A stretch of DNA of 64,000 nt. It comes from an uncultured Actinomycetes bacterium (GTDB lineage: Bacteria > Actinomycetota > Actinomycetes > Nanopelagicales > Nanopelagicaceae). Of this stretch, positions 58,792 through 63,235 are shown piece after piece; position 1 is the stretch's first letter, and each line of letters opens with the position of its first letter. The stretch covers positions 1-64,000 of the forward strand of contig CAIRHO010000067.1 in the NCBI GenBank assembly GCA_903878415.1. The letters are read 5' to 3'. Both the position numbers and the translations under genes were made by a program. Under the pieces are notes generated by a model. It was given only the letters and a program-made list of their open reading frames with translations, was not told the origin of the DNA and ran no database searches.

Positions 58792-60722
<1,931 letters not shown>

Positions 60723-60783: not shown

Positions 60784-61086
60784 TTAAGAAGCGCTAAATA
60801 TTTTGCGATTATTAGATTGGTCAATAATTGACAATCGGTCATCTTCAGTAAGACCGCCCCAGATTCCATATGGTTCTTGCGCTGCAAGTGCATGTGAGCG
60901 ACAGGCAGCAATCACTGGACATGAAGCACAGACGGCTTTTGCAGCATTCTCGCGCGCTTTCCGGCGTGGGCCACGCTCACCATCTGGATGAAAAAACATC
61001 TCGGATGGCAGATCCCGACAAGCGCCTTGATATTGCCATTCCCAAGAATCAGCGATTGGCTTTGGCAGGCGAGAGAGCTCGGTCAT
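60784..61086 (-). CDS. WhiB-family Fe-S transcription factor (WhiB3/WhiD-like)
   Basis: 100 aa from the ATG at 61086 (MTELSRLPKPIADSWEWQYQGAC). Four cluster cysteines: C23 and C53, C56, C62 in AVCASCPVIAAC. The beta-turn motif GIWGGL (74-79) follows. FFHPDGERGPRRKARE and VIAACRSHAL are closest by eye to mycobacterial WhiB3 and Streptomyces WhiD. The place beside groESL and guaB matches whiB3. Such proteins bind a [4Fe-4S] cluster and sigma-A region 4. An upstream ATG at 61110 lies in the spacer of the predicted promoter, so it is rejected as start. Confidence 0.93.
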   Translation of the reverse strand: MTELSRLPKPIADSWEWQYQGACRDLPSEMFFHPDGERGPRRKARENAAKAVCASCPVIAACRSHALAAQEPYGIWGGLTEDDRLSIIDQSNNRKIFSAS

Positions 61087-61092
61087 GGCTCC

Positions 61093-61121
61093 AATGTACA
61101 ACCGCGCCATAGGTTGTTCAA
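61093..61121 (-). promoter_or_regulatory. whiB promoter, leaderless and spanning an inverted repeat
   Basis: On the minus strand, TTGAAC (61121-61116), 17 bases, TACATT (61098-61093), then GGAGCC and the whiB ATG at 61086. The expected first transcribed base is the A of the ATG. TGAACAACC (61120-61112) and GGTTGTACA (61103-61095) form an inverted repeat with an 8-base centre that overlaps both promoter boxes and fills the spacer, the placement used by MerR-family regulators. Confidence 0.6.
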
Positions 61122-61186
61122 GTCTTTACCCTACTTTTGGTGCGTTTCAAGTGGTGAGTTGGCTCTCAACGCGGCAGCATTGCGGC

Positions 61187-62089
61187 ATGAGCATGCCGGA
61201 AACTGAGTTTCTTACGGTGGCAGCTGTTGCCCGCCGAATTGGCGTAGCGCCGGCCACCCTGCGAACCTGGGATCGTAGATATGGATTAGGTCCGAGCCGT
61301 CATGCAAGCGGCAGTCATAGGCGATATTCAGATTTAGATGTTTCCCGCCTGACTTTAATGCGAAAACTAATTAGCACCGGGGTTGCTCCAGCAGATGCTG
61401 CATTGACAGCTGTCGCGCTAAAAGAGAAAAGTGGAGTATCTAAAGAAGTTAGGCGAAAAGTTACTAAAGCGATTGATTCGCCAGATATCTTAATTGCAAC
61501 TTTGATGCGAGCCGCGAGCGCTCTTGATTGTGATTTGGTCGAAGAAATAGTCTCGACTCAGATAAAAAAAGTTGGGGTTGCAACTTGTTGGCGAGAGTTG
61601 ATTTCTCCTTTACTAATTCAAATTGGCGAGAGTTGGGAAGAGGGCAGAGGCGAAATTGAAGTTGAACATATGCTTAGTGAAGTATTACAGAGAACGCTTC
61701 GTGAAAATCAAGAGCCACTTAGTAAGCCGATAAATACCCGCCCAGTATTACTAGCTTGTCCAGGTGAAGAGCTTCATACCTTGCCACTACATGCGTTGGC
61801 AGCTGCGCTATCAGAGCAAAATATCTCAGTACATTTCCTTGGTGCGAGAACTCCGATTTCGGCGCTGGCGGCTGTTGTAAAACGCGCAGCACCACCAGCA
61901 GTTTTCTTATGGGCCACTATGGCATCAAATGGCGACCATAAAATTGTTTCAGCGCTACCGACGATTCGACCAACTCCAAGGATTTTGCTTGGTGGACCGG
62001 GTTGGCAGGTCGAAAATTGCAAGGCCGCAACCTTTGTTACAGATTTAGATCATGCTTGTCGTGAAATTACGCGGGCGGTCGGCGCTTAA
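61187..62089 (+). CDS. MerR-family regulator with B12-binding domain, CarH/LitR-like
   Basis: 300 aa from ATG 61187 (another possible ATG at 61193). Winged helix near 8-75: FLTVAAVARRIGVAPATLRTWDRRYGL and HRRYSDLDVSRL. A four-helix bundle follows with W150, E160 and H161 in W-x9-EH. The Rossmann B12 domain has H197 in GEELHTLPLH, the lower cobalt ligand position. Spacing from W150 to H197 is 47 residues, against 46 in Thermus CarH as I recall it. CarH proteins bind DNA as adenosylcobalamin tetramers in the dark and release it in light. The residue after W150 is Glu, where Thermus CarH has the light-state upper-ligand His. Divergent from whiB. Confidence 0.85.
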   Translation: MSMPETEFLTVAAVARRIGVAPATLRTWDRRYGLGPSRHASGSHRRYSDLDVSRLTLMRKLISTGVAPADAALTAVALKEKSGVSKEVRRKVTKAIDSPDILIATLMRAASALDCDLVEEIVSTQIKKVGVATCWRELISPLLIQIGESWEEGRGEIEVEHMLSEVLQRTLRENQEPLSKPINTRPVLLACPGEELHTLPLHALAAALSEQNISVHFLGARTPISALAAVVKRAAPPAVFLWATMASNGDHKIVSALPTIRPTPRILLGGPGWQVENCKAATFVTDLDHACREITRAVGA

Positions 62090-62098
62090 AACCACCGA

Positions 62099-63235
<1,137 letters not shown>

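Follow-up and report, generated by a model that had tools for sequence, protein, structure and literature searches.

The window, a stretch of 64,000 nucleotides from a host genome assembled to 1.36 Mb in 71 contigs, contains a divergent pair of regulatory genes bracketed by groEL and guaB, in the order groEL-whiB-merR-guaB. The minus strand carries a whiB3/whiD-type gene of 100 amino acids (60784-61086), and the plus strand a gene for a protein with MerR and B12-binding domains, 300 amino acids long when counted from its ATG (61187-62089), which Pfam domains and comparison with CarH identify as a CarH/LitR homologue. Gene calls place groEL (59088-60722) on the whiB side and guaB, encoding IMP dehydrogenase (62111-63235), on the merR side, both on the plus strand; both are conserved neighbours of the pair. 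No carotenoid or photolyase gene is apparent around the locus in the part of the window examined (57-64 kb). The GroEL protein ends in a His/Gly-rich tail (60640-60722).

The WhiB sequence contains four cysteines and matches the Pfam family Whib with 85.7 bits. Compared with solved Wbl proteins, it scores 117 bits against WhiB3 (8cyf) and 55 bits against WhiB1, so that the Fe-S factor recognized in the sequence-only reading can be specified, by sequence match, as a WhiB3-type Fe-S protein. WhiB3 of Mycobacterium, its best match, is the orthologue of Streptomyces WhiD (PMC4255298).

The minus strand of the whiB promoter region reads CTTGAACAACCTATGGCGCGGTTGTACATTGGAGCCATGACC. It includes a predicted promoter (61093-61121) with the -35 box TTGAAC (61121-61116), a 17-bp spacer (61115-61099) and the -10 box TACATT (61098-61093), followed by six bases and the whiB ATG (61086-61084). 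Both boxes are overlapped by an imperfect inverted repeat on the same strand, TGAACAACC-N8-GGTTGTACA (61095-61120), whose 9-bp arms differ by one mismatch, exactly as had been described from the window. An ATG at 61110, in frame upstream of the whiB start, also falls inside the element; the predicted promoter would not transcribe it. The locus thus presents a (pseudo)palindrome over the promoter boxes, as MerR-type operators do. Inverted repeats of this kind (9-bp arms, at most one mismatch, gap of 4-20 nt) are common, with 231 in the window versus 128 in a mononucleotide shuffle; the palindrome alone therefore proves nothing, and the evidence lies in its conservation.

We gathered whiB/merR loci from the host genome's own family and aligned 80 of them on the site, counting offsets from the first T of the -35 box. 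Offsets -2 to +24 and a T at +28 are almost invariant, and columns outside this block mostly carry about 0.1-0.5 bits. In the window the block corresponds to ACTTGAACAACYTATGRMRCGRTTGTA (61097-61123, minus strand), where we propose that the divergent MerR/B12 protein binds. The invariant letters comprise, in order, TTGAACAAC, TATG, CG and TTGTA, and finally the T that closes the -10 box. The -35 box is near-invariant and the -10 box reduces to TAnnnT, its positions 3-5 being variable, whereas many positions of the spacer are invariant and as conserved as the boxes, which is more than expected of a promoter alone. The element is found at the whiB promoter in all 90 family genomes that have whiB and a neighbouring merR, so the expectation that relatives with both genes would keep the repeat held. 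Essentially one strong site occurs per genome, in the family as in the host, and no further copy of the repeat with up to three mismatches exists elsewhere in the 1.36-Mb genome. This pattern of sequence conservation supports an operator role for the element at the whiB promoter.

The apparent uniqueness of the site makes the regulator look dedicated to whiB3. It had been suggested that the repeat might also lie at carotenoid, rhodopsin and photolyase genes; with essentially one site per genome, such wider control is unsupported. We have dropped this regulon from consideration, having found no convincing site beyond whiB in the genome or the family.

Analyzing the symmetry of the aligned sites, we noted that the best of 24 axes tested makes 52% of pairs complementary, against 40% for the next, and that these pairs join only ACAA[C] with [G]TTGT. 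Family-wide, the palindrome thus comprises the inner arms ACAA[C]...[G]TTGT only, with equally strong conservation in parts of the centre that are not palindromic (TATG...CG). An alternative reading is one TnnACA unit across the -35 box, present in 78/80 family loci, plus a degenerate unit 11 bp further on, similar to the operators of CarH, which reads 11-bp direct repeats (PMC9304148). An array of three or more tandem 11-bp TnnACA repeats, as in CarH operators, is absent; a second TnnACA, 20 bp on, occurs in only 6/80 loci. The earlier description of a plain MerR palindrome therefore holds in part. Fourteen loci from genus g16 and its relatives, including L087, L088, L090, L028 and L038, carry, exactly 26 or 27 bp upstream of the first site, a weaker second copy with up to six mismatches, a level reached by 7 of 1600 shuffles. 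This copy largely keeps TGAACAA and the central CG, and not the right arm.

The position of the promoter also bears on the start of the transcript. In 41 of the 80 family loci, the whiB start codon lies at +35 or +36, where transcription is expected to begin. It lies further downstream in the other 39 loci, 38 of which have a Shine-Dalgarno-like sequence. One promoter position explains both arrangements, and we accordingly predict that whiB of the window is transcribed without a leader, from the A of its ATG (61086, minus strand). The proposal that the transcript starts at the whiB ATG itself thereby gains support as a prediction. On the opposite strand, a GTG at 61151, in frame with the merR ATG at 61187, is a possible true merR start. 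The stretch GTTTCAAGTGGTGAG (merR sense, 61143-61187) is conserved beside the in-frame GTG codons at 61151 and 61154, and the frame 5' of the ATG is kept in the three loci of the genus that were compared. Judged from this conservation, the protein probably starts at an upstream GTG, which would add about 12 residues to the gene model that begins at the ATG. We sought a promoter in merR sense and found no convincing one.

The distribution of the element follows that of merR. In the 112 family genomes that are at least 90% complete, we find the two genes together in 90. A further eight retain whiB but not merR, G138 alone combines merR with a degenerate whiB, and both genes are missing from 13, one of which (G099) contains only a distant, 27%-identical homologue; the co-occurrence of whiB and merR gives a Fisher value of 8e-11 for species that are not independent. 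The element is absent from all seven assessable whiB loci without merR, the eighth (L042) being cut by a contig end, and no site with up to two mismatches occurs anywhere in the merR-less family genomes. Tested against the presence of merR, the site yields p=6e-12 (Fisher) as run with eight loci and about 8e-11 with seven, again with species that are not independent. The presumed tie between the repeat and the divergent MerR/B12 gene is thus supported across the family. The merR-less cases come from more than one genus (g15 and g4) and represent the same locus, with merR missing: guaB adjoins whiB in seven of the eight, in three of which groEL is seen as well, and in the eighth groEL lies on the other side of whiB. 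At the level of sequence, these genomes are natural deletion experiments in which the operator appears to have been lost along with the regulator. That the element vanishes whenever the neighbouring B12-type sensor gene is lost suggests that this sensor is a dedicated control of whiB3.

Several loci of the family depart from the common arrangement. In the merR-only case (L048:1356-2415, G138:C51), no intergenic region is left: the start of whiB overlaps that of merR, and the shortened whiB shows only 45% identity. Either the circuit has truly decayed there or the assembly is at fault. All four genomes of genus g2 with at least 90% completeness (G005, G021, G032 and G043) are devoid of both this whiB and this merR, as if a streamlined lineage had lost the two together. 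L056:1489-1755 (G024:C51) is a second WhiB3-like gene with an in-frame TGA, and neither groEL nor merR is present in the fetched stretch.

The regulator scores above the Pfam cut-offs for MerR_1, B12-binding_2 and B12-binding and matches the CarH structures 3whp and 5c8d over their full length (E about 1e-19). It reaches 107.2 bits against the NCBIfam CarH equivalog NF052513, far below the curated cut-off of 400, and we therefore file it as a homologue of the LitR/CarH kind and claim no membership in CarH itself. In Thermus CarH, W131, E141, H142 and H177 hold adenosylcobalamin or sense its adenosyl group (PMC9304148; PMC11796333). The equivalent residues are W150, E160 and H197, each present in 79/79 family proteins, and H161, present in 78/79. 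Outside the family, the Wx9EH motif retains its tryptophan in 26/28 proteins and its glutamate and histidine in 28/28. The residue beside W131, a histidine that serves as upper ligand after light in T. thermophilus CarH, is mostly glutamate or alanine in the 79 family proteins. From the B12 motif D/ExHx2G/P-x41-SxT/V-x22-27-GG, the ExHxxP and GG parts are present and the lower-ligand histidine is invariant, and the serine is replaced by tryptophan in 79/79. The same tryptophan occurs in a Streptomyces-type LitR-like protein (L178), whose neighbours, judged by eye from their translations, are a divergent apparent ECF sigma factor and an apparent photolyase, a layout that resembles, by analogy, the LitR/LitS system. 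The CarH-like assignment of the divergent regulator is thereby upheld as a CarH/LitR homologue with the cobalamin and light signature residues. Within the family, sequence identity is 76% in the DNA-binding domain and 47% over the remainder of the regulator, and the recognition helix of the domain hardly changes across the class; such constancy would be expected if the operator does not change. Of the 112 family genomes, 108, the host included, encode a PduO-type cobalamin adenosyltransferase, and a CobO-type enzyme is absent from the host genome.

We further surveyed 297 genomes of the class and fetched 40 class loci. Outside the family, sites with up to two mismatches occur in nine genomes from five families, in every case upstream of the genome's own merR homologue. 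The groEL-whiB-merR synteny is common across the class, and recognizable versions of the element accompany it in many other families: whiB lies beside the merR homologue in 30/40 class loci, mostly with groEL adjoining whiB, and most of these 30 loci carry a sequence resembling TTGA-N-YAAC-YTATGRMGCG-GTT with 17-18 bp spacing. The element is absent from the ten class merR loci without whiB. In two loci of family f9 (L164 and L167), the merR homologue lies beside groEL; no whiB was found there and the operator is absent. A protein tree of the regulators left the class backbone unresolved and neither supported nor rejected one origin of the whiB-linked regulators.

Taken together, the element is best read as the operator of the divergent LitR/CarH-type MerR/B12 protein, with whiB3 as its apparently sole genomic target, repression in the dark and release in the light; we give this reading a probability of roughly two-thirds. 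The low score against the CarH equivalog, the replaced upper-ligand histidine and SxT serine, and an operator that lacks tandem TnnACA repeats count against it. In the dark, the adenosylcobalamin-bound regulator would cover the promoter from -35 to -10 and exclude sigma-A RNA polymerase. Light, or a lack of adenosylcobalamin, would free the promoter and allow a leaderless whiB3 transcript, and hence the Fe-S redox regulator WhiB3, to be made. Binding by the regulator, repression rather than activation, and light as the signal are what we infer. Promoters activated by MerR proteins have a spacer of 19-20 bp. The spacer here measures 17 bp in the window and 17-18 bp in the class loci, a length that needs no MerR-type untwisting of DNA and thus favours repression.

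Pure repression is nonetheless uncertain, since Streptomyces LitR, a B12-dependent light sensor that acts on the promoter of the litS sigma-factor gene, is described as both a dark repressor and a light activator (PMC12705666). The regulator might likewise act mainly as an activator in its light state, or switch between the two roles, and this is the liveliest rival, if an unlikely one. In its favour, five of the seven assessable merR-less whiB loci have no clear TTG-N16-18-TAnnnT promoter. The short spacer between good boxes speaks against it, and so do the remaining two loci: L045 keeps TTGAAT-N17-TAGAGT and L046 keeps TTGAAC-N18-TAGAGT, both without the operator, so that the promoter was retained as the operator went.

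Somewhat less probable again is that the same protein and operator respond to cobalamin supply, that is, to the level of adenosylcobalamin or the redox state of cobalamin, and not to light. Conserved cobalamin residues, the adenosyltransferase and the missing upper histidine ligand of the light state would all suit such a sensor, and many class lineages with the whiB/merR pair are not obviously light-dependent. Against this, the tryptophan and the EH pair, which touch the adenosyl group and on which light sensing by CarH critically depends (PMC9304148; PMC11796333), are near-invariant, and light is sensed by Streptomyces LitR (PMC12705666), whose relatives share the tryptophan in place of the SxT serine. 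Our data are consistent with either light or adenosylcobalamin as the signal.

We consider it improbable that another factor, such as WhiB3 itself, binds the element and that merR is merely linked to it. The pairing of regulator and operator is deduced indirectly, and where there is no whiB there is no element either; however, whiB genes without merR lack it at the very same locus, which argues against autoregulation by WhiB3 alone, and good sites across the class lie only beside merR. Finally, promoter strength or a coding constraint could be invoked because the two conserved blocks coincide with the -35 and -10 boxes and the host has an in-frame ATG in the centre, but this is very improbable given that the spacer letters equal the boxes in conservation and the -10 box varies at positions 3-5, that merR-less promoters drop the spacer sequence, and that the central ATG becomes ACG or GTG or falls out of frame in relatives and so is not a start codon in all of them.

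An operator of a LitR/CarH-type protein on whiB3 would combine features of several known systems. As in the LitR-LitS system of Streptomyces, a MerR/B12 regulator stands beside a divergent target that is itself a transcription factor, with a similar recognition helix (RSWDRRY versus RTWDRRY) and the same tryptophan in the B12 motif; LitS, however, is an ECF sigma factor and the target here a WhiB3-type Fe-S protein, in a groEL-whiB-merR-guaB locus with no apparent carotenoid or photolyase gene in the 57-64 kb examined. The domain order, the Wx9EH motif and the lower-ligand histidine are shared with CarH of Thermus thermophilus, Bacillus megaterium and Myxococcus xanthus, as is an operator overlapping a sigma-A promoter, -35 included. 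CarH differs in its tandem 11-bp TnnACA repeats and carotenoid targets (PMC9304148), in place of which we find one TnnACA with an imperfect inverted repeat, and whiB3. The class II LitR proteins PplR1 and PmlR2 of Pseudomonas recognize TGTACA-N12-TGTACA over the promoter (PMC9758184), similar to TGAACA-N14-TGTACA in the window, but the second hexamer is conserved in only 6/80 loci here, and those proteins are thought unable to bind B12, PmlR2 working via a LOV protein. Our literature searches returned no report of whiB3 or whiD controlled by a B12-type MerR protein and no link between CarH or LitR and WhiB; for WhiB3 with MerR and WhiB with LitR, titles and abstracts held nothing relevant. The parts are known; their pairing, the target whiB3 and the conservation of the arrangement appear not to have been described before.

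The B12 photoreceptors known so far mostly control carotenoid genes, directly or via a sigma factor. The circuit proposed here, if true, would connect light directly with Fe-S redox control in abundant planktonic and many other actinobacteria, presumably as readiness for photo-oxidative or redox stress. Tentatively, and at somewhat less than even odds, a B12-based light switch on WhiB3 at the fixed groEL-whiB-merR-guaB site may be ancestral to much of the class Actinomycetes, as a single-target circuit lost together with whiB3 in streamlined lineages. It would then offer a possible ancestral input for WhiB3/WhiD, proteins that have been studied mainly for their roles in virulence and sporulation.
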